Below are positions 6,004-28,756 of a stretch of DNA of 64,000 bases, piece after piece (position 1 is the stretch's first letter; the number at the start of each line of letters is the position of its first letter). Position numbers and translations under genes: made by a program. Below the pieces are notes generated by a model. It did no database searches and had not been told where the DNA came from. It worked only from the letters and a program-made list of their open reading frames with translations. This stretch comes from Sporomusa sp. KB1 (GTDB lineage: Bacteria; Bacillota; Negativicutes; Sporomusales; Sporomusaceae), in assembly GCF_007830295.1 (NCBI RefSeq), contig NZ_VLKC01000002.1, positions 468,940 to 532,939 of the forward strand, read 5' to 3'.

Positions 6004-6831
6004 TCACATACTTGCTTTTACAATCTCTTTGGCCAATGCCGTATTAAGCGCATGACTTGACTTTACGGCAATAACATGACCGGCAATACGGCCAGCTAGT
6101 GCCAAATCGCCAATTACATCTAAAATTTTATGCCGGACCAGTTCATCAGAGAACCGCAGCGGCGTTAAGCAATTTTCATCATCGTATACTACTACATTGT
6201 CCAGGCTGCCTCCCAAAGCCAAGCCCTGGGCTTTGAGAGTCTCTACCTCGTGCATAAAACCGATGGTACGAGCCGGAGCCAGTTCCCGGGCGAAAACTTC
6301 AGGAGTTATTTCATAGTCACCAAACTGAACACCTAACAGTGGGTGCGGGTTAATTGAGGTAAAGGTGATGCGAAATCCATCATAAGGTAAAATAGTAATA
6401 AATTTTTCAGGATACCGCACTGTTATGGCTTGTTTAATAATAATGGGCGGACGACGCAGTTCAGAGAGTACCTGGGTGCCTGCTGTTTCAAATAGTTTAA
6501 GAAAAAGCAATGAACTGCCGTCAGCTACCGGTGGTTCCACAGAGGAAATTTCCACCAGACAGTTGTCAATGCCCATAGCGGCAAATGCAGCCAATAGGTG
6601 TTCCACGGTAAAAACTTTGGCCTCGCCAGCTTCTAGCGTAGTTGCCCGCATGGTATTGGTTACGTTGATTGCCTTAGCCGCAACACGAGGTGTACCAGTA
6701 AGGTCAGTCCGGGCAAATACAATGCCACTACCGGCAGGTGCCGGGTTCAAAGCAATGGTTACATCCCGCCCTGAGTGCAAGCCGATACCGGTATAAGTTA
6801 CGCGCGAAGCTACTGTGGTTTGGCGATCCAT
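6004..6831 (-). CDS. lpxC: UDP-3-O-acyl-N-acetylglucosamine deacetylase
   Basis: 275-residue zinc amidase performing the committed step of lipid A synthesis. Zinc ligands are visible as H78 (VEHLLAA), H234 and D238 (VRHKILDVIGD), and the catalytic-site H260 lies in KSSHALN. This is the unfused form: no FabZ domain is attached, and fabZ follows as a separate gene. The ribosome site AGGAGG precedes ATG 6831. The 91-bp gap from the upstream ATPase gene contains no clear terminator, so co-transcription is possible. Confidence 0.96.
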   Translation of the reverse strand: MDRQTTVASRVTYTGIGLHSGRDVTIALNPAPAGSGIVFARTDLTGTPRVAAKAINVTNTMRATTLEAGEAKVFTVEHLLAAFAAMGIDNCLVEISSVEPPVADGSSLLFLKLFETAGTQVLSELRRPPIIIKQAITVRYPEKFITILPYDGFRITFTSINPHPLLGVQFGDYEITPEVFARELAPARTIGFMHEVETLKAQGLALGGSLDNVVVYDDENCLTPLRFSDELVRHKILDVIGDLALAGRIAGHVIAVKSSHALNTALAKEIVKASM

Positions 6832-6922: not shown

Positions 6923-7696
6923 TTATGCAATACGTTTACCAGCCAGAGTACGGGCACTGGTATTTAGTTGGTACTCAATAAGTTCTTTATACTGACGGCC
7001 AACGTGAGAAGCCGGATTAACAAACACTTGGCTGGGAATGCCCGACTCTACGATGGTGCCTTTTTCCATCAGCACAATGCGGTCGGCTACATGTAGTGCA
7101 AAAGCAATTTCATGGGTCACCACCAGCATGGTGGCCGCCCGGTATTTGGCCAGTTCTTCCATAACGACAAGAACTTCTCTTACTAACATGGGGTCAAGGG
7201 ATGCAGTAGGCTCATCCCACAACATGAGTTCTGGTTCAAAGGCCAGCGCCCGGGCAATGCCTACCCGTTGTTGCTGCCCGCCGGACAGTTGCTCTGGTTT
7301 GTGGTCTTGCAACTGTTCCATACCTACTTTGGTCATGGCAGCAAGCGCCTTGTCATAGGCCTCTTCTTTGGTTTGTCCCCCCATGACTAATCCCAGCATG
7401 ACATTTTCAATCGCGCTAAGACGATTGATAAGATTAAAGTGCTGAAATACATAGCCAATACGTTTACGTACCTTTCTTAGCTCATCCTCCCTTACTTGGG
7501 TAATGTCCAGGCCATCAAAAACAATCGAGCCACTATCTGGTTCAATTAAACGATTAATTGTCCTGATGGTTGTTGACTTACCACAACCTGACGGCCCCAT
7601 GATGACAACAGTCTCACCAGGTGCCACTTCCAGGCTAAGGTTGTTGACAGCTACCAGACTGCCAAATTTTTTATACAGGTTCTGGATGGTAAGCAT
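6923..7696 (-). CDS. ABC transporter ATPase, polar-amino-acid (GlnQ) type, in lipid A cluster
   Basis: 257-residue ABC ATPase. Walker A is GPSGCGKST, the signature LSGGQQQRVGIARAL, Walker B LMLWDEPTASLDP and the switch His lies in VVTHEIAF. The sequence is of the GlnQ/ArtP kind. No amino-acid-binding protein or ordinary permease is nearby; the only partner is the 784-residue membrane protein ending 25 bp upstream, which carries an EAA-like C-terminal loop. GGAGGTG 7 bp before ATG 7696 fixes the start. I infer an envelope transporter rather than amino-acid uptake; the substrate is unknown. Confidence 0.85.
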   Translation of the reverse strand: MLTIQNLYKKFGSLVAVNNLSLEVAPGETVVIMGPSGCGKSTTIRTINRLIEPDSGSIVFDGLDITQVREDELRKVRKRIGYVFQHFNLINRLSAIENVMLGLVMGGQTKEEAYDKALAAMTKVGMEQLQDHKPEQLSGGQQQRVGIARALAFEPELMLWDEPTASLDPMLVREVLVVMEELAKYRAATMLVVTHEIAFALHVADRIVLMEKGTIVESGIPSQVFVNPASHVGRQYKELIEYQLNTSARTLAGKRIA

Positions 7697-7721
7697 ACTG
7701 CTCACCTCCATTCTAGTCATA

Positions 7722-10076
7722 TTACTTAAACTTTACCTTACGTTGGTTCAACTTTTGCATAAGACCTGGACGGCCGCTGGGGATAACAATCTCTCTCATG
7801 ACTTCGTCGAGAGACAGTCCCAGTGCCTCACCGGCCATAACCTCTTCGCCTGCAATCGGGCTAATCTTTTCAGTATAGGCAGCCACTATCAAGCCAAGCA
7901 GTGCACCAATAACAGGCACCCCAATCCAAGGCAGGTACGGAATACCACCGCCAGCGAGAATGAACATGGCTGTCAGCATCACGGCACCTACGCCCATACC
8001 ATAGCGGCGCTCCGGTGCAGTAAAAGCTCCTGTCATACGCTCTATTACTTTGCGCCAGCCTGTGGCAGGCAGCTTTTTTGCTAAGCGCTTACGGCGAATA
8101 ACAGTCATGATCGCTGTGTGGTCCAGTCCCAGGAACAAAATGGTGATAATGATGGCCGTCATGCCTGCCAATACTCCTCTTACTTCATTAAGCACCTGGT
8201 ATAGCTCGCCACGTGCGTTGGGTTCAATTACACCCAAAGCGGTCGAGTAGAGCGATACGTTGTTGTTACCGGCCTGTGCATGAACAATAGGGGCCACAGC
8301 CTCTGTGCTAATGCTGCTTGTTGTCAAAATCTGAATCCTGGCACCGGGAATAACTTGTCCGGCGATAAATTTATCCAGTAAGGTAACTGAATGACTGATT
8401 TCGTCATCTTTGAGATTAGGCACAGCACTTGCCAGATATTGAACCTGAGCTGTAATCATGGGCACATTAATTTCCTGCAACCCATTAAGGCGGGCATTGG
8501 CATCTGTCAGTCCCCGTTTGGCTCCCTGCGCATCAAAAGCGCGCAAGGTACCAAGTGTTGTTTCTCCATTTGCAACAATGTTGTCAATGGCTGACTTAGC
8601 CTGGCGGGCATTGGCTGCCACACTATCCAGGGAGGCCAAGCTGGAGCTTAAACTGCCCAGATTTTGCTGTGCCCCTGTCAGAGTGCTGATAGTCGAGTTG
8701 ACATCACCATTGAGCAACTTCAATACCTGCAGGCTAGTAACCAAACCGCCGATGTTACGTGAGGAGCTGTCAAGCTGATAACGGATACCGCGGGTGTCAA
8801 TACCAGCCAGAGCACTGGTAGCAGCCTGAATGGTACCACCTGCCACCTGCAAGCTTGATAAAGTGCCTGCTAATGCGTTCACACTGCCGCCATAGTTATC
8901 AAGTGCACCCAGGGCAATGCCGCTCAGGCTTTTGGCATCTTGGGCAAAACCGGGAATTTGTCCGACAAGCTTACCTGTCTCGCCTAATGCATTTCCCAGT
9001 TCCTGCCGTGGATTTTTATAGGTGGCGCTAGCGGTTTGCGCTCCAACTACCTCTTTTTCTAATTTATAACCTGGTGTGCTGCCTAACTTGGAAGCATCAC
9101 CCTGAGTAATACGGCCTTCTGCCATGCCATTGGCAAGAGCAGCTGTGATTTCCACAATTACATTACTTTTTTCCGGTGCTTGTCCAGCTTGTGGCAGCTG
9201 CGCCGCCTGACCTTGAAAGACAACAATATCCCCTTTTGCCAGTTTAGTACCGGCAGCCGGGGTTAGCGTGACTTGGGAAGCATAGGCTGACAGGAACCGT
9301 TTCAATTCAATCATGGTGCTGACCATATAGGTCATATCATCATTTTTGCCGTCAATTGATACATTCTGTGCATATTCCAGGTGCAGATCTTTTTGCATGG
9401 CTTCTGAAATACCTTCACCCAGACGTACTGGATTGGCTGGTTCACTACCTACCGGAAAGGTAATTTCAATAACTTGATAGTCTTTTAAAATATTCTTGAT
9501 ACTGTTACTTACAGCTGATGACTTATCCAGTGAAGTTAAAATAACGCCAACACTGCTGCCATCACGGAAAGCGAAACGAACCCCCTCCATTTTCATGATA
9601 CGCTCAATCAACATGTTTTTCGCACCGTCTGGCACGCCGCGAATATTAAGGCGTGGCTCAGTCATCATACCGACACTGCCACCGCCGGGGATGCTGCCAA
9701 AGGTTTTCGACAGATTTTCATAAATTTCTTTGGTTTTATATTGGTCAGGCAGAGTAACATAAAAAAACGATTTGCCGGTAACTGTCGGTCCTTGACTTAC
9801 CGTGCCGCCTGGGAACACCTCGGCAACAATCTTGTTCACCTGCATGGCGGTATCGTCTTTCATTTCTTCCCTGACTTGAATTACTAAGTCATATTCACCA
9901 TAGTCACCCACAAGGCTAGCGAGTGTTTTCGAAAAATAGGCATTAGCGGCCATGGAGACCGAACTGGACACCAATGAGCCGATAATTACACTTACGGTAA
10001 GCAATAGTACAATATCTCGTTGAATAGAATCCTTACATATGCTTCTAATTGTTCTCATTATTTTCATTTTCAACAT
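7722..10076 (-). CDS. large membrane protein with extracytoplasmic domain and EAA-like C-terminal loop, probable partner of the adjacent ATPase
   Basis: 784 residues, not a family I can name. One TM helix (about 21-45) is followed by some 590 extracytoplasmic residues, whose second half is a Leu/Ser/Ala/Gly-rich helical stretch resembling the coil of YhgE/Pip proteins. Then come TM helices at about 634-655, 695-712 and 718-734 and a cytoplasmic tail. Residues 747-766 read MAG-x3-G-x9-I-V-IP, close to the EAA-x3-G-x9-I-x-LP coupling loop of ABC importers. Four TM segments place that loop in the cytoplasm, next to the ATPase encoded 25 bp downstream. I infer a two-gene transporter or mechanotransmission system of the envelope. 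Confidence 0.7.
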   Translation of the reverse strand: MLKMKIMRTIRSICKDSIQRDIVLLLTVSVIIGSLVSSSVSMAANAYFSKTLASLVGDYGEYDLVIQVREEMKDDTAMQVNKIVAEVFPGGTVSQGPTVTGKSFFYVTLPDQYKTKEIYENLSKTFGSIPGGGSVGMMTEPRLNIRGVPDGAKNMLIERIMKMEGVRFAFRDGSSVGVILTSLDKSSAVSNSIKNILKDYQVIEITFPVGSEPANPVRLGEGISEAMQKDLHLEYAQNVSIDGKNDDMTYMVSTMIELKRFLSAYASQVTLTPAAGTKLAKGDIVVFQGQAAQLPQAGQAPEKSNVIVEITAALANGMAEGRITQGDASKLGSTPGYKLEKEVVGAQTASATYKNPRQELGNALGETGKLVGQIPGFAQDAKSLSGIALGALDNYGGSVNALAGTLSSLQVAGGTIQAATSALAGIDTRGIRYQLDSSSRNIGGLVTSLQVLKLLNGDVNSTISTLTGAQQNLGSLSSSLASLDSVAANARQAKSAIDNIVANGETTLGTLRAFDAQGAKRGLTDANARLNGLQEINVPMITAQVQYLASAVPNLKDDEISHSVTLLDKFIAGQVIPGARIQILTTSSISTEAVAPIVHAQAGNNNVSLYSTALGVIEPNARGELYQVLNEVRGVLAGMTAIIITILFLGLDHTAIMTVIRRKRLAKKLPATGWRKVIERMTGAFTAPERRYGMGVGAVMLTAMFILAGGGIPYLPWIGVPVIGALLGLIVAAYTEKISPIAGEEVMAGEALGLSLDEVMREIVIPSGRPGLMQKLNQRKVKFK

Positions 10077-10223
10077 ACGTTTTCGTCACCCCATTTCTGG
10101 AGTACATTATAACACATATATCAGTTTTATGTAAATAAGTATATCAAATTTAACGTATTACTTATATACATTTTTAGATTATTTTCTTTACTAATGAATG
10201 ATTTGCCTGTTTCTGCTGCCTAA

Positions 10224-10325
10224 AAAAGCGAGCTTGCCCCGCTGTGCTATCATCACAACGACCGGGATCGTAGTACCGTTTCCCATTACAGTCATTGTGA
10301 GCACCAACGTGGCAATCTCGCTTTT
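10224..10325. repeat. palindromic intergenic element, copy 1 (GCGAG...TTGC arms)
   Basis: About 102 bp bounded by 15-bp inverted arms (10224-10238 and 10311-10325) with one mismatch; partly paired inner arms include TCATTG-type sequence. It lies right after the lpxL stop. The arms share GCGAGATTGC with the element at 41118-41203, so both probably belong to one interspersed palindromic family. Confidence 0.65.
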
Positions 10326-10326
10326 C

Positions 10327-11211
10327 CTACATGCAATATTTATCTTTTAAATCAGGCGGAGCCGTCTTCCAACGGTTGTGCAGCCAGAACCATTCCTGGG
10401 GATGCTGTCTGATATGCTGTTCAATAATTCGGGTCAAGTGCTGGGTAGTATTGCGAATATCCTCAGTACGATCCTCTGTTTTAGTTACCAGGATAGGCGG
10501 GTGAAGGATGGCGATGTGGGTACCATCGGGGTTCTCGGTGATAAAGGCCGGAACTATGGGAGTGTTACCCAGTCTGGCCAGTGCGGCAGCCCCTTGCGGC
10601 GTGGAAGCCATACGCCCGAAAAACTCTACAAATACACCATCCCTGTGATTGTCTTGATCCATTAACAAACCGATAATTTTGCCTGATCCCATTAGCTTGA
10701 CCATTTCCCGCACTCCTTGCTTATAGGTGACATGCATACCGGCTTTAGTACGATATTCATTAATAAAGGTATCCATGGCGGCATTGGTCTGACGCTGGAC
10801 TACGGCCACTATAGGAAATCCATGCATGGCCAGTGCTGCCCCTAAGAGCTCCCAATTACCACTATGTGCGGTAGCCAGTACAGCTCCCCGTCCCATAGTA
10901 AGCGCAGCTTCAAGATGCTCACTGCCTCTAAGGGTGACATACTTATTAATGTTGTCTTTGTTCAGTCTGGGCATGTGGAGTACTTCCATAAACATCGGTC
11001 CAAAACGAATTCCACTGCTTTTTGCAATGGTTTCTGCCTGCTCCTCAGTAATTCCAAGACTGCGGCTGATGTTGTCAATGGCCATCTTCCGGCGCTTTTT
11101 TGATACTAGTGGCCAACAAAGCCTGCCAATAACCATACCCAGATTACGCCGTAAAGCTCGCGGCAAAATACATACAAAACGGCTTATTGTTTTCACCAGG
11201 TAGTACAGCAT
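10327..11211 (-). CDS. lpxL: lipid A acyltransferase of the LpxL/HtrB family
   Basis: 294-residue lysophospholipid acyltransferase superfamily member. An N-terminal hydrophobic segment anchors it to the inner membrane; the catalytic H-x4-E pair is H116 and E121 in AHSGNWE. The family adds a secondary acyl chain to Kdo2-lipid A from acyl-ACP. AAAGGAGG precedes ATG 11211, and the gene follows the YjbH-like gene by 15 bp. Which secondary position it acylates cannot be read from sequence, so the symbol is by family only. Confidence 0.85.
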   Translation of the reverse strand: MLYYLVKTISRFVCILPRALRRNLGMVIGRLCWPLVSKKRRKMAIDNISRSLGITEEQAETIAKSSGIRFGPMFMEVLHMPRLNKDNINKYVTLRGSEHLEAALTMGRGAVLATAHSGNWELLGAALAMHGFPIVAVVQRQTNAAMDTFINEYRTKAGMHVTYKQGVREMVKLMGSGKIIGLLMDQDNHRDGVFVEFFGRMASTPQGAAALARLGNTPIVPAFITENPDGTHIAILHPPILVTKTEDRTEDIRNTTQHLTRIIEQHIRQHPQEWFWLHNRWKTAPPDLKDKYCM

Positions 11212-11226: not shown

Positions 11227-11859
11227 TTAGTAGGTAAAGCTGGCACCAAAGTACGTCTGATGCTCGCGACGGCCAACATCTAATTTGAGGCCAGGCACTA
11301 CTGCCATACGCGCGCCATAATTCATGTCATTGCCATCCCATTCAGCGATCAGCGTTGTTGCCGGAAAAACGTTGTTGCCAGTAAGTATGCCTAGCGGGTT
11401 AATGGTCTTTTCCACGGCAGCAAATACACCATCATAGCGGCCATTGCCAATACCGGCATGAATACGGAATCCGAAAGGCAATGCTTTGCTGGCAGATACA
11501 TAGGCTGTGCGCTTGTCTAAATTGGCAATATCTTCAACGCCAATAGCCACACCAGGGGTTAAAACGGTTTCCGGCACCAGACCATACTTGGCATTAACAT
11601 AGGTGTGATCTTTACGACCAGCGTCGTTATCATAACGAAAGCCTGCTGCACCAACTTCCAGTTTGCCAGTCAAATTCATAGTAACGGTACCAACACTACC
11701 ATCTTTTAAATGATGGTATCCCAAAGAGAATTGCCCCTCCTGCAGGACATCGGCCGAAGGAGTATTAATAAGGCCTGTTGAGCCATTGACAGAAGGTGCT
11801 GCGAACACAGGCGACGCCGTCAATAAAAAGGTTATAGCCGCAAAAATTGTTTTTTTCAT
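11227..11859 (-). CDS. YjbH-domain-like outer-membrane beta-barrel protein
   Basis: 210 residues with a clear Sec signal peptide (cleavage near the AFA-like site VFA/APS around residue 20). The mature start GSTGLINTPSADVLQEG resembles the opening of YjbH/WbfB-type outer-membrane proteins. Alternating hydrophobic strands and a terminal aromatic (ends FTY) suggest a small barrel. Function unknown; YjbH proteins elsewhere are linked to exopolysaccharide. It follows lpxD but is separated from it by a strong terminator and a 115-bp repeat, so it probably has its own promoter driving lpxL too. Confidence 0.7.
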   Translation of the reverse strand: MKKTIFAAITFLLTASPVFAAPSVNGSTGLINTPSADVLQEGQFSLGYHHLKDGSVGTVTMNLTGKLEVGAAGFRYDNDAGRKDHTYVNAKYGLVPETVLTPGVAIGVEDIANLDKRTAYVSASKALPFGFRIHAGIGNGRYDGVFAAVEKTINPLGILTGNNVFPATTLIAEWDGNDMNYGARMAVVPGLKLDVGRREHQTYFGASFTY

Positions 11860-15268: not shown

Positions 15269-16567
15269 CTACAAATTGGCGATCAGTCTAAGCCAGTTTT
15301 CCTTTTCAGTAATAACATATTCGGCACTTAGAAACTCATGCAGCTTATATCTGACCCCAAATTCGTAGTAATCAGCTTTGGGCGTGTCTTCCAGCCGAAT
15401 CATCCAGTTGGGGCCAAGGTTGTGATTAAGCCATAGGATACTATCATGTTCTGAGATATTGTACCTTAGACCGGCTAGCGTATTTTCTGTAAATTTATGG
15501 CCCCAACCTGGTTCAAACTCCCACTCCATGCTATCAGGGGCAAATTTAATTTCCATAAAAGCCTCATCCCGCTTGCCGGTAAATTTACCAAAATGAAGTT
15601 TCGCCATCGTATTATCTTTCTCTCGCCCCATATCCAAACTGCCTTCGAGAATTACCCGGTATTTGGTAGTTTCGGCCTGAAGTGTTATTGCAGTATCAAC
15701 GCCGGGATTTATAGCAGGAGTTAATAGCAAGCCATACTTTTTAACTACGGGATGCTTAGCCGCCGTTTTTTGTATCTCAGTAGTAAAATACTCTTTATGC
15801 CGCTCCACAAAAGCTACCGGCAAACCACGCAGCATGTCCGCCGCTTTGCGGACAGGGGGCCTGGCCTCAGCCAGCAAGATATTGGGAATGGTACTTGAGC
15901 GCAGGGAAAGTTCAACATTATTAATTGTTGGTCCTGTGGGAATTAGCGAAAGTTTGATACTCGTATGCTGCCCGGCAGTAATCTCAAGATTACTGCGAAA
16001 TTCCGGCAGTTCGGTTGCCAACAATTCGCGGATAACCGTCTTGGATATTCCGCCTGCCCATTCTACTGAGTCTACAGGCAGACCAATCAAAACATCGGCA
16101 GCTTGATCTTCTATCTTACCCATGTCGTTTTTGATTACTGTCATTACCTCAGGTGAGAGACCACCGATGTCAATTTCAAGAGAAATGTCGCGCACGACAT
16201 CACCCCAGGGTCTTACTGTCACTAAAATATTGGTGCTGGTACCTGGAGTTAATTTAACTTGCTCGACTGTATAACCAACGAGTACTCTGTTGAATATATC
16301 CCTGACAAGATCTTCATAGTTGGCTTGATTTGTCTCTACATCAATAAGGGTTCGCCCAACAAGAATCTGTTCTCCTACTGTCATAATACTTGCGGTCATT
16401 CGCTTGGCAATTCTGGCAGGAGGCGGCTCAGCAGCCGCAACAGTTACCACGATTTTATCCACTGTCTCAGTTGCAGCTAAGCCGGTTCCCGGCCAAAGGC
16501 TCAGCAAGGTAATAAAGCTGAGAACTAGGAGTATCTGGCGTGGACATTTTCTGCTAATAACTCGCAC
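15269..16567 (-). CDS. predicted outer-membrane/periplasmic protein between bamA and ompH, unknown family
   Basis: About 430 residues. A signal peptide (SRKCPRQILLVLSF... to GLAA) is followed by an alpha/beta periplasmic region with repeated POTRA-like VxLxPGxS strands, then an antiparallel-strand-rich C-terminal third ending LRLIANL, suggesting a small barrel. I cannot name the family. The start is uncertain: GGGAGG is followed by GTG 16567 inside the ribosome site or by an in-frame ATT at 16558 with good spacing and directly before the signal peptide; the ATG at 16618 would force translation through a 13-bp hairpin. Confidence 0.65.
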   Translation of the reverse strand: MRVISRKCPRQILLVLSFITLLSLWPGTGLAATETVDKIVVTVAAAEPPPARIAKRMTASIMTVGEQILVGRTLIDVETNQANYEDLVRDIFNRVLVGYTVEQVKLTPGTSTNILVTVRPWGDVVRDISLEIDIGGLSPEVMTVIKNDMGKIEDQAADVLIGLPVDSVEWAGGISKTVIRELLATELPEFRSNLEITAGQHTSIKLSLIPTGPTINNVELSLRSSTIPNILLAEARPPVRKAADMLRGLPVAFVERHKEYFTTEIQKTAAKHPVVKKYGLLLTPAINPGVDTAITLQAETTKYRVILEGSLDMGREKDNTMAKLHFGKFTGKRDEAFMEIKFAPDSMEWEFEPGWGHKFTENTLAGLRYNISEHDSILWLNHNLGPNWMIRLEDTPKADYYEFGVRYKLHEFLSAEYVITEKENWLRLIANL

Positions 16568-16580
16568 CTCCCTCTTAGTA

Positions 16581-16609
16581 AATGAGTCAGGCCAGCGGCC
16601 TGACTCATT
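16581..16609. other. perfect hairpin between bamA and the next gene
   Basis: 13-bp perfect stem (AATGAGTCAGGCC) with a 3-nt loop, 12 bp after the bamA stop and just before the downstream ribosome site. No T-tract follows, so it looks like an mRNA-stability or attenuation hairpin that lowers downstream expression relative to bamA rather than a full terminator. Confidence 0.7.
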
Positions 16610-16621
16610 AGCTAACATGTT

Positions 16622-25937: not shown

Positions 25938-27209
25938 CTAAAATGACTGTCTTATACCAAAATATGAAGTTCTTTCCTCATCCTTATTAAGACTGCTGGT
26001 CTGCCCTACAAGAAAGGTGTCCGGAGCTACCTGATACTGAGTGCGCAGTTTGACCCGGACATCATTGGGATCATAGGCATCTAGCGACATTCGCAGCTCA
26101 TTACCCAGTTTAGCATCCAAACCAACGCCGATCTTATTATCAATAATGCCTACCCGCCGGCTTACAGCCGGACCACTTTTACCTAGTTGCAGATTTACTC
26201 TATTGTCTTCACCGATATCGTTAACACCAATGACAGCAAAATCACTGGGCGAAGTGTTGATGGTAAAATTAGCGTTGCTTTGGTATTTGCGATTATCAGC
26301 ATCATATAGGGCTTCGATACTGGCTTCGGTTTTAATATTTGCTACCTTGTTCAGCATTTGATTCGCTTTGGCCGCGGCATCACGGGCATTTCTCAGCGTT
26401 TCCCTGAGATTCCTGGACGCTTCGGGGTCGGTTACGACTCCCTCTAAGGCAGCAGCCATCTTTTCAACCCGGCTGCTGGTTTGACGAAGTGCGGCAATAG
26501 TTTCCCGCAAGTCTTTGGCTGTTTCTCCGTTGTTATCCACATCGGCAAGCATAGTATCCACCCGGGCAGCCGTAGCCTTGAGACTGATAGACATATCCTT
26601 TAGGTTACTGACCATAGATGTTACATCACCATGGCTTTCATCAGCCATCATCGCCAAAGTAGCTGTCAGCCTATTAAGGTTGTCTGTTATATCTCTGGTA
26701 TTTAGCGCCGTTTCTTTAAGTGCTGCCCTAACCTTTTCGTCACCGACAACATCATTGAGCGCCTTAACCAACGTTTTGATTTCAGCCAGTACCTCATTGG
26801 CTGATACCAAGAGTTCATCCATTCCCTGGGGATTTTCGCCATAAACGGTGTCGTTAGGAACTAAAAAACCTTTCACGTCCCGCTGTGGCACTACATTAAT
26901 AAACTTTTCCCCCAATAGGCCATCTGATCCGATGGTAAATTTTGAGCCAGCAGGAACCTTTACCCCAGGATTCAGCATAATATCAGCAACCACACCATCA
27001 GGCAGCACCCTAACATCAGCCACCTTGCCAACATCGACACCCGCATAGCGCACAATGTTACCTGGCTTCAAACCGCTTACCTGCCCAAACATTGCATGCA
27101 CCGGATACCCTTTGTCACCAAAACTCATACCGCTCAAATAAAAAAGCATTCCGACCAGTAAGGCAAGGCCCGCCAGTGTTATGGCTCCAACTTTTGCTTC
27201 CGTATTCAT
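25938..27209 (-). CDS. mlaD: MlaD-type MCE protein with C-terminal barrel-like extension
   Basis: 423 residues, far longer than proteobacterial MlaD. N-terminal TM helix (about 8-28), MCE domain (about 36-117), a long helical segment (about 125-295) and a strand-rich C-terminal part (about 310-423) ending in Phe (GIRQSF). This matches the transenvelope MlaD described in the diderm Firmicute Veillonella, where an inner-membrane anchor, helices and an outer-membrane barrel form a bridge for phospholipids. The start overlaps the mlaF stop as ATGA, indicating coupled translation. Confidence 0.92.
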   Translation of the reverse strand: MNTEAKVGAITLAGLALLVGMLFYLSGMSFGDKGYPVHAMFGQVSGLKPGNIVRYAGVDVGKVADVRVLPDGVVADIMLNPGVKVPAGSKFTIGSDGLLGEKFINVVPQRDVKGFLVPNDTVYGENPQGMDELLVSANEVLAEIKTLVKALNDVVGDEKVRAALKETALNTRDITDNLNRLTATLAMMADESHGDVTSMVSNLKDMSISLKATAARVDTMLADVDNNGETAKDLRETIAALRQTSSRVEKMAAALEGVVTDPEASRNLRETLRNARDAAAKANQMLNKVANIKTEASIEALYDADNRKYQSNANFTINTSPSDFAVIGVNDIGEDNRVNLQLGKSGPAVSRRVGIIDNKIGVGLDAKLGNELRMSLDAYDPNDVRVKLRTQYQVAPDTFLVGQTSSLNKDEERTSYFGIRQSF

Positions 27210-27964
27210 GCTCTGGACCTCCCTTTACGTTCTGGGAAAGTAGATCCTCCCCGGATAAATTTGATCATTATCGGATTTTCGGACTGTCTTATTGTCTCTG
27301 GTGTGCCAGTTTCGACAATGCTGCCGCCATAAATCATCGTAATCCGGTCGGCAATGTTGAACACGCTCGACATGTCGTGAGTAACAACAACCGAAGTGGC
27401 GTCCATCATCCGTCTGGTACTAACAATCAGCCTGTTAATAGTATTTGACATAATAGGATCAAGGCCGGCTGTAGGCTCATCATACAACACAATATGCGGA
27501 TCAATCGCAATCGCCCGGGCCAAACTGACCCGTTTTTTCATCCCGCCGGACAATTCGTTGGGCATCGCAGTTTCCTGCCCCCGCAGACCAACCATTCGTA
27601 ACTTACGCCGCACGGTTCGTGCAATGTCTTCTTCCAGCATATCGGTATGCTGCCGTAAGCCAAATGCCACATTTTCCCCTACTGACATGGAGTCAAACAA
27701 GGCAGAATACTGAAAAACCATACCCATTTCCAGCCTAATCTTGTTAAGCTCATCTTCTGTCATAGTCGTAATTTCCCGGCCATTAACCCAAATCTCCCCG
27801 CTAGTGGGTTTCAATAAACCGATAATTAACCTGAGCAGGGTACTTTTCCCCGAGCCACTTGGCCCGATAATGACCATTATTTCCCCCTGTTCAATTGTCA
27901 GGTTAATGTCTTTGAGGACTTGTTTCCCACGGAAATTCATATTGACATTAACTAGCTTGATCAT
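27206..27964 (-). CDS. mlaF: Mla phospholipid transporter ATPase
   Basis: 252-residue ABC ATPase of the MCE-associated type: Walker A GPSGSGKST, the characteristic signature LSGGMKKRVSLARA, Walker B IVLYDEPTAGLDP and a switch His in VVTHDMSS. It powers MlaE to move phospholipid between the inner membrane and MlaD. ATG 27964 follows TGAGGTCAACC; a longer reading to 27976 lacks a ribosome site. It starts 21 bp after mlaE and overlaps mlaD, the usual operon. Confidence 0.95.
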   Translation of the reverse strand: MIKLVNVNMNFRGKQVLKDINLTIEQGEIMVIIGPSGSGKSTLLRLIIGLLKPTSGEIWVNGREITTMTEDELNKIRLEMGMVFQYSALFDSMSVGENVAFGLRQHTDMLEEDIARTVRRKLRMVGLRGQETAMPNELSGGMKKRVSLARAIAIDPHIVLYDEPTAGLDPIMSNTINRLIVSTRRMMDATSVVVTHDMSSVFNIADRITMIYGGSIVETGTPETIRQSENPIMIKFIRGGSTFPERKGRSRA

Positions 27965-27985
27965 GGTTGACCTCACATTTCTATG

Positions 27986-28756
27986 TTACCGATATAGCGC
28001 TACAGATAAAAAATAGTTACTGACAAAAATTAGAATGATAGACAAGACCACTGAACCTGTCGTTGCCTGTCCTACCCCTTCAGCGCCTTGCGCAGTGGTT
28101 AACCCTTTATGGCAGCCGATAATGGCAATAATAGATCCGAACACCATGGCTTTAATCATTCCGCCAATAATATCATGCGGCACAGCAAAAGCCTTAATCG
28201 AATTAAAGAAGGTAAACGGCGTAATGCTGGCATAGGATGTAGCAATCATATAACTGCCTATGATACCAATAACATCGGCAAAAATGACCAATATGGGCAA
28301 CATGGCCATACAGGCAAGTAAACGCGGAACTACCAGGTAGGCAACAGGACTTATCGCCATAACCCGTAGGGCATCTATTTGCTCGGTTACCTTCATTGAA
28401 CCAATTTCGGCAGTAATGGCCGCCCCTACCCGCCCGGCAAATACTACCCCTGCCAGCACTGGCGATAATTCACGTCCCATAGCCACCGCTACCAACCCGC
28501 CTACTGACGACTGTGCCCCATATTTTACAAATTCATGGGCAGTCTGCACCGTCATGACCATGCCGGTAAATAGCATAGTCAGAAGCACGATTGGCAACGA
28601 GTCAGCCCCTAAATGTGCCATTTGCCGCAGCAGCAGCCTACTATTTAGGTGGCGTAAATGATAGACAGTCTGACCAAACAAAATCAAGACTTCTCCTATA
28701 TTTTCTAAAATGCCAATAACCATCCTACCGGTACGGGCGAAAAATTCGATAAGCAT
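27986..28756 (-). CDS. mlaE: Mla phospholipid transporter permease
   Basis: 256 residues with about five hydrophobic segments and the MlaE family (DUF140) stretches GRVGAAITAEIGSMKVTEQIDAL and VVPRLLA, which form the coupling region. It is the membrane core of the MlaDEF phospholipid transporter. AAGGAGCCTGGTT precedes ATG 28756. It heads the mla operon; the upstream S55 protease gene is separated by a terminator, so a promoter probably lies in the 200-bp gap 28757-28957. Confidence 0.95.
   Translation of the reverse strand: MLIEFFARTGRMVIGILENIGEVLILFGQTVYHLRHLNSRLLLRQMAHLGADSLPIVLLTMLFTGMVMTVQTAHEFVKYGAQSSVGGLVAVAMGRELSPVLAGVVFAGRVGAAITAEIGSMKVTEQIDALRVMAISPVAYLVVPRLLACMAMLPILVIFADVIGIIGSYMIATSYASITPFTFFNSIKAFAVPHDIIGGMIKAMVFGSIIAIIGCHKGLTTAQGAEGVGQATTGSVVLSIILIFVSNYFLSVALYR

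Follow-up and report, generated by a model that had tools for sequence, protein, structure and literature searches.

Distribution and predicted architecture of an ABC-type gene pair from the outer-membrane gene cluster of diderm, endospore-forming Bacillota

Examination of a 64,000-nucleotide stretch of the genome of Sporomusa sp. KB1 (contig NZ_VLKC01000002.1, positions 468,940 to 532,939; hereafter the window) revealed, inside a lipid A gene cluster, two adjacent minus-strand genes coding for a 784-residue membrane protein, P784 (7722..10076), and an ATP-binding cassette (ABC) ATPase of 257 amino acids (6923..7696). P784 is the founder of an unnamed family, and its comparison with Pfam, NCBIfam and the PDB sequences gave no significant match. 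The pair follows almost exactly a rule of joint presence: it is found where LptF/G, components of the lipopolysaccharide (LPS) extractor LptB2FGC, and the sporulation protein SpoIVA occur together. This link to the endospore is the strongest pattern in the data and was missed in a preliminary description of the pair made from the sequence alone, the interpretation of which is partly supported here. We propose, with as much doubt as confidence, that P784 and its ATPase constitute an ABC machine in the inner membrane of those Bacillota that are both diderm and endospore-forming, acting when the outer membrane is remade or reset around the spore.

Distribution of the P784-ATPase pair

P784, LpxC, LptF/G and SpoIVA were each sought in the same fixed draw of 398 genomes of Bacillota, SpoIVA serving as a genomic proxy for sporulation. 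P784 was detected in 78 genomes, after removal of three ordinary permeases, LpxC in 85, LptF/G above cut-off in 98 and SpoIVA in 336. Nearly all genomes with P784 also carry SpoIVA (77/78) and LptF/G (76/78, Fisher 1e-58), the two exceptions to the latter being fragmented metagenome-assembled genomes (MAGs). Among the 98 genomes with LptF/G, SpoIVA and P784 are both present in 75 and both absent from 20 (Fisher 1e-17). One genome, G422, assembled in 470 contigs, has P784 and no SpoIVA, and two have SpoIVA and no P784, namely G253, in 450 contigs, and G346, in which the contig ends at lpxC, where P784 would begin. SpoIVA occurs in 259 of the 300 genomes that lack LptF/G, P784 in only two of them, both fragmented MAGs.

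The association with SpoIVA came to light in an initial batch of 80 genomes, in which SpoIVA was present in 47/47 genomes with P784 and in 0/30 P784-negative genomes that had LptF/G or belonged to the class Negativicutes. Another batch of 80 served as a check: 62 of the 65 P784-bearing genomes had SpoIVA and the 15 others comprised 12 Negativicutes negative for SpoIVA and three fragmented MAGs positive for it. Both batches overlap the draw of 398, the only set searched for LptF/G, and the counts are not mutually independent. P784 had no match in any genome from the asporogenous families of Negativicutes examined, and Veillonella, previously suggested as a host for depletion of the pair, is therefore probably the wrong choice. 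P784 is present in 54 of 100 related genomes, twice in some, and a parallel scan, in which other phyla were not searched exhaustively, placed 75/75 P784 loci in Bacillota, including Sporomusa, Pelosinus, Anaerospora, Propionispora, Lucifera, Halothermothrix, Frackibacter, Limnochordia and others.

The tie to lipid A synthesis is looser. Strict co-occurrence with lpxC/lpxL had been anticipated, whereas LpxC accompanies P784 in 64/78 genomes, a weaker association than that with LptF/G; of the 14 P784-bearing genomes that lack LpxC, 12 keep LptF/G, and conversely P784 is missing from 21 genomes in which LpxC is present. A strict dependence of the pair on lipid A synthesis was rejected because of these 14 genomes. 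Three genomes with LpxC and SpoIVA and without P784 (G181, G247, G321) all lack LptF/G, and in the first two LpxC is a distant copy outside any outer-membrane cluster. Distant LpxC homologues (28-32% identical) lie outside outer-membrane clusters in spore-formers without LptF/G (loci L297, L298). The pair belongs with the outer-membrane genes of diderm Firmicutes, and genomes without LptF/G rarely carry it; it is not strictly tied to lipid A.

Independent losses of the pair

Mapped on an LpxC tree, the presence of P784 requires four changes or more, and well-supported branches force three of these. The pair was lost in two separate groups of Negativicutes (families f10 and f18) and in one or two groups resembling Halanaerobiales (f93 and f140), giving at least three separate losses in which the lpx genes were left in place. 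Within family f93, presence and absence of P784 both occur and match those of SpoIVA: G366 has both genes, and G178, G320 and G450 have neither. In 11 of 16 asporogenous loci, lpxL, lpxD or a YjbH-like gene lies within about 105 nucleotides of lpxC (gaps of -4 to 105 nucleotides), which indicates that the pair is gone and the cluster has closed up. Genome size does not explain this pattern, as P784-negative genomes can be as large as 3.9 Mb and genomes with P784 and SpoIVA as small as 1.7 Mb, and the size range of the P784-negative ones includes 35 of 47 P784-bearing genomes.

Predicted architecture of P784

Hydropathy analysis placed a hydrophobic N-terminal helix of P784 at residues 22-40 approximately, followed by some 560-590 residues without membrane helix and by C-terminal membrane helices at about 634-660, 694-712 and 715-733, making four in total. 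The N-terminus, the loop 668-692 and the tail are rich in Lys and Arg, from which an N-in/C-in topology is predicted. AlphaFold2, run on a 104-row alignment, returned the same layout (mean predicted local distance difference test score, pLDDT, 86; predicted TM-score, pTM, 0.58), so that both methods agree with the arrangement first read from the sequence, one N-terminal helix, a large extracytoplasmic part and three C-terminal helices. In the model, with hydropathy agreeing on the membrane helices, a long transmembrane helix TM1 (residues 18-56; 9909..10025, minus strand as for all segments of P784) leads into a predicted periplasmic part (57-620; 8217..9908) composed of ferredoxin/ACT-like subdomains (61-260), a beta domain (268-354) and a coiled coil (356-573). 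A second long helix, TM2 (621-667; 8076..8216), is followed by an amphipathic helix (674-686), TM3 (688-708; 7953..8015) and TM4 (719-738; 7863..7922). The coiled coil is the part with the most variable length; short members of the family (583-616 amino acids) retain the N-terminal third together with the C-terminal part, and most of the coiled coil is gone. A fold search, mainly with the coiled coil and residues 61-139, retrieved only generic coiled coils and an ACT/ferredoxin-like subdomain.

The cytoplasmic tail (residues 743-777; 7746..7850), modelled as helices 743-751, 756-767 and 772-777, carries an EAA-like motif (residues 747-766; 7838-7779) and a P-x2-RPG motif. It reads MAG-x3-G-x9-I-V-IP, close to the importer EAA consensus, just as the preliminary description had it. 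A 32-row alignment of P784 has 57 invariant columns, many of them in the tail; in the 104-row alignment, with identities down to about 18%, G57, G131, D652, G724, G753, P766 and P770 are invariant, and G753 and P766 correspond to the EAA glycine and the EAA proline. A loose form of the motif (A-x4-G-x9-[IVL]-x-[IVLA]-P within the last 60 residues) was found in 159/171 P784 open reading frames (ORFs) and in 1/1730 other ORFs of at least 200 amino acids in the same set of loci, which is far above chance. The P784-profile search of the 398 genomes also drew four proteins of 221-241 amino acids, aligned exactly at their EAA loops; these proved to be ordinary amino-acid permeases and were left out of the counts. 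When the C-terminal region of P784 was compared with 35 such permeases, HHalign gave a probability of 96.2% and a score of 63; in 200 column shuffles the score never exceeded 22, and the reversed alignment scored 16. Removal of the EAA block lowers the score to 18, in the shuffled range, and the claim of similarity is accordingly confined to that block; homology with the permeases beyond it is not claimed. Within the block, these comparisons argue for a real similarity to the EAA loop of polar-amino-acid permeases rather than a chance motif. The permease domain BPD_transp_1 (PF00528) has no match in P784 of the window, and sub-threshold matches only in distant members (E 0.0046 and 0.017). P784 ends some 18 residues past the motif, with no core membrane helices after it, unlike type I importer permeases.

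The P784-associated ATPase

The ORF of the ATPase is open from position 7720; its start is probably at 7696, since a Shine-Dalgarno sequence, GGAGGTGA, at 7709-7702 just precedes the ATG at 7696-7694. The protein matches Pfam ABC_tran (E 6e-40) and has intact Walker A, Q-loop, LSGGQ, Walker B and H-loop motifs. Over 113 distinct pairs, Walker A is conserved in 113 ATPases, the H-loop in 112, Walker B in 110 and a canonical LSGG in 83. The nearest types by sequence are GlnQ and ArtP, of the amino-acid-importer type, and in the tree the ATPases of P784 pairs form a single clade (support 99/96). Four other ATPases of the same genome branch off first, apart from this clade; two of these adjoin FtsX-type permeases, judged by position.

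The gene pair and its cluster

P784 and the ATPase constitute a conserved adjacent gene pair: they lie side by side on the same strand in 152 cases, and in locus L164 they are fused in frame into one 967-amino-acid protein. A 1333-amino-acid P784 candidate in L163 was rejected as a fusion, being a frame read-through in GC-rich DNA. Modelling of the fused P784-ATPase (in-frame loci, with a single stop read as a residue) gave a pLDDT of 82 and a pTM of 0.45, with no interface score or coordinates.

Both ORFs and their lipid A neighbours were confirmed in the window. Upstream of P784 lie an lpxL-like lipid A acyltransferase gene (10327..11211, minus strand; Pfam), a YjbH-like gene and lpxD; downstream of the ATPase lie lpxC (6004..6831, minus strand; NCBIfam), fabZ (named by resemblance only), lpxA, lpxI, lpxB and an MsbA-type ABC gene. 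In NCBIfam, lpxB, lpxA, lpxC and lpxD score above cut-off, MsbA just below and the LpxI-like protein below. The order in Negativicutes is lpxL - P784 - ATPase - lpxC, and the common one in other diderm Bacillota is lptF/G - OstA-like - lptC - lptA - P784 - ATPase - lpxC, with Lpt proteins assigned by Pfam. The pair thus stands directly before lpxC in most outer-membrane lineages and, outside Negativicutes, often after lptC-lptA. Where lpxC is absent, in L168, L169 and L172, the pair is still beside lptC and lptA. In the neighbourhoods examined, which are made up of lpx, lpt and bam genes, no solute- or amino-acid-binding protein was recognised beside the pair.

Between lpxL and P784, a terminator-like hairpin (10227..10243) and a sigma-A-like promoter with extended -10 (TTTACA-18-TATAAT, 11/12; 10106..10135), both on the minus strand and both consensus matches only, suggest that the pair may have its own transcript.

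Several other features of these clusters were recorded. This genome and several related ones have a second P784-ATPase pair outside the outer-membrane cluster (L031 7701-10067; G000:C2:480920-484036), 51% and 69% identical, with neighbours that are not conserved across genera; a second P784 copy elsewhere in the genome occurs in Sporomusaceae relatives. Five lpxC-less loci (L168, L169, L172, L141, L135) combine bamA, skp-like, lptF/OstA, lptC, lptA and the P784 pair, with no lpxC, lpxA or lpxD nearby, and some genomes with such loci (G270, G294, G175) have no LpxC anywhere, which suggests outer membranes without classical lipid A. L168 (9555-12842), L169 and L172 encode a single protein of about 1,100 amino acids in which LptF/G is fused to an OstA/LptD-like part (Pfam LptF_LptG and LptD_N), and similar long frames recur in several families. 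Many non-Negativicutes clusters code for a second LpxB-like protein after lpxB (L117 15679-16857, L173 1563-2789). In the window, the gene between lpxD and lpxL (11227-11859, minus strand) encodes a predicted outer-membrane protein, short and YjbH-like (PF06082), that recurs in most clusters of Negativicutes and in many others, and a 449-amino-acid protein without Pfam match, encoded next to bamA (15269-16618, minus strand), is conserved in all Negativicutes clusters seen. A gene coding for a SpoIVB-type S55 peptidase (PF05580; 28958-30799, minus strand) lies directly upstream of mlaE/mlaF/MCE in the outer-membrane cluster and is possibly another link between sporulation and the outer membrane.

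Discussion

The pair represents an ABC architecture that unites an importer-type ATPase and an EAA loop with a MacB-like helix layout. With polar-amino-acid uptake transporters (GlnQ/ArtP with a HisM/ArtQ-type permease, BPD_transp_1) it shares the ATPase family and an EAA-like loop of the form E-x2-AG-x3-G-x9-I-x-IP. P784 differs from their permeases in having four membrane helices instead of five or more, an EAA loop that forms the C-terminal tail with no helices after it, and a periplasmic part of about 560 residues; no binding protein accompanies the pair in the neighbourhoods examined. With type VII ABC systems (MacB, LolCDE, FtsEX) it shares the order TM1 - large periplasmic domain - TM2-4, the N-in/C-in topology, the long stalk-like TM1 and TM2 and the outer-membrane context, whereas its ATPase belongs to a different clade, an EAA-like tail replaces the usual coupling and the periplasmic coiled-coil part is much larger. 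LptB2FGC is also driven by an ABC ATPase, lies in the same gene cluster and has a near-identical distribution; its permease and ATPase are different and, as LptF/G and LptB are also present, P784 is no replacement for it. The Mla/MCE system (MlaEFD), an ABC system for outer-membrane lipids encoded in the same window (25938-28756), has an unrelated permease, P784 having no MCE domain; Mla is present in asporogenous Veillonella (PMC10665443), in contrast to P784, unmatched in the asporogenous Negativicutes genomes examined.

In the mechanism that we propose, two P784 and two ATPase subunits would assemble, and ATP binding and hydrolysis would displace the tail helices that carry the EAA motif, in the manner of type I importers. 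The movement would be relayed through TM1 and TM2 to the large periplasmic coiled-coil part, as in MacB or LolCDE, without inward transport of a small solute. The work would be directed at envelope lipids or at components of the Lpt system or outer membrane, either during engulfment or during outgrowth, when the outer spore membrane, similar to an inner membrane, turns into an outer membrane. Asporogenous diderms would never need this remaking step and would for that reason have lost the pair.

Several points weigh against this role. Its support is a phyletic pattern only, and the loss of sporulation is a change of lifestyle in which other genes are lost simultaneously. The MacB-like layout lacks sequence support, for HHalign found no profile similarity to FtsX-type permeases (probability 2.3). 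Mutual-information covariation between P784 and the ATPase showed no enrichment in the tail, with sequences too few and too conserved. Upstream of P784 loci, sigma-E, sigma-F and sigma-K patterns were not clearly enriched and, given the sigma-A-like promoter of the window, expression of the pair is not obviously spore-specific. A sigma-G-like pattern was in weak excess, with 11 loci where shuffling gave at most 9.

The best surviving alternative, possible yet clearly less probable in our judgement than action around the spore, is a general accessory transporter of the outer membrane or Lpt system, used vegetatively by free-living diderm Bacillota and lost together with sporulation as host-associated lineages were simplified. 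The location in a vegetative lpt/lpx/bam cluster, the sigma-A-like promoter without sporulation-sigma signal and the possible second copy in Sporomusaceae relatives fit such a transporter. It accords poorly with the failure of genome size to account for the pattern, with the presence of both states within f93 in step with SpoIVA, with the excision of the pair only, other outer-membrane genes staying, and with the agreement of at least three independent losses.

We consider it improbable that the pair is a LolCDE/MacB-like exporter, sorting lipoproteins or extruding lipids in place of a Lol system said to be absent from Negativicutes. The helix layout with long TM1 and TM2 is the same, and LolA and LolB are reported absent in Negativicutes (PMC5007114). 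However, besides the missing FtsX-type similarity, which extends to the absence of P784 from the nine PF02687 (FtsX-like permease) matches of the genome, the ATPase is not of that type, P784 is absent from the asporogenous Negativicutes examined, and Halanaerobiales carry P784 (L147, L151) despite the LolA and likely Lol cluster reported for them (PMC5007114). The preliminary description likened the architecture to MacB or YhgE; the helix layout of MacB is shared, although profile comparison gave no support for placing P784 in the MacB family.

A single-polypeptide relative of RND/MmpL or YhgE-type proteins, with an incidental neighbouring ATPase, is more doubtful still. Members of the MmpL/RND and YhgE/Pip groups are also membrane proteins with a large extracytoplasmic coiled-coil part, and the best Foldseek match of P784 was MmpL5 (E 1.1e-4), which has porter-like and coiled-coil parts as well. 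This match was rejected as homology because TM-scores were low (0.12-0.14), the aligned part being mostly coiled coil. P784 has no sequence match to these proteins and half the helix number of RND proteins; the YhgE/Pip N-terminal domain model TIGR03061 matched no P784 gene in 41 genomes; and the partner ATPase stands next to P784 at nearly every locus, with the two fused at a single one. Least likely of all, and disfavoured, is an importer of polar amino acids or similar solutes with an unusual permease, to which the GlnQ/ArtP-like ATPase and the EAA-like tail would point, in view of the lack of a binding protein, of a BPD_transp_1 domain and of post-EAA helices, the lpt/lpx location and the near confinement to genomes with LptF/G.

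Action of the pair around the spore may be given a more specific form. As the review PMC7985256 describes, cryo-tomography of Acetonema longum showed that the outer spore membrane derives from the inner membrane of the mother cell and, on outgrowth, has to turn into an outer membrane bearing LPS; the mechanism of this remodelling "is not known" according to the same review (PMC7985256, citing Tocheva 2011). Such a conversion features in models for the origin or loss of the outer membrane in Firmicutes (PMC5007114). The conserved unexplained proteins listed in that study of outer-membrane clusters do not include the P784 pair (PMC5007114). In the literature covered, subscription papers and preprints excluded, we found no description of the pair, and the literature found ties no gene to the conversion. 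It is conceivable, although we would sooner expect otherwise, that P784 and its ATPase are the machine missing from this process and turn the outer spore membrane, of inner-membrane origin, into a true outer membrane, through transport of envelope lipids or activation of Lpt/Bam assembly there during engulfment or outgrowth, with an importer-type ATPase coupled to a periplasmic arm through a C-terminally relocated EAA loop.

Conclusions

The P784-ATPase pair displays the phyletic signature expected of a gene for this conversion: it accompanies the combination of outer membrane and endospore and has disappeared repeatedly upon loss of one or the other, with the remainder of the outer-membrane cluster kept. 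It therefore makes the question of conversion testable by a single deletion, and provides a testable candidate for how diderm spores regain their outer membrane.

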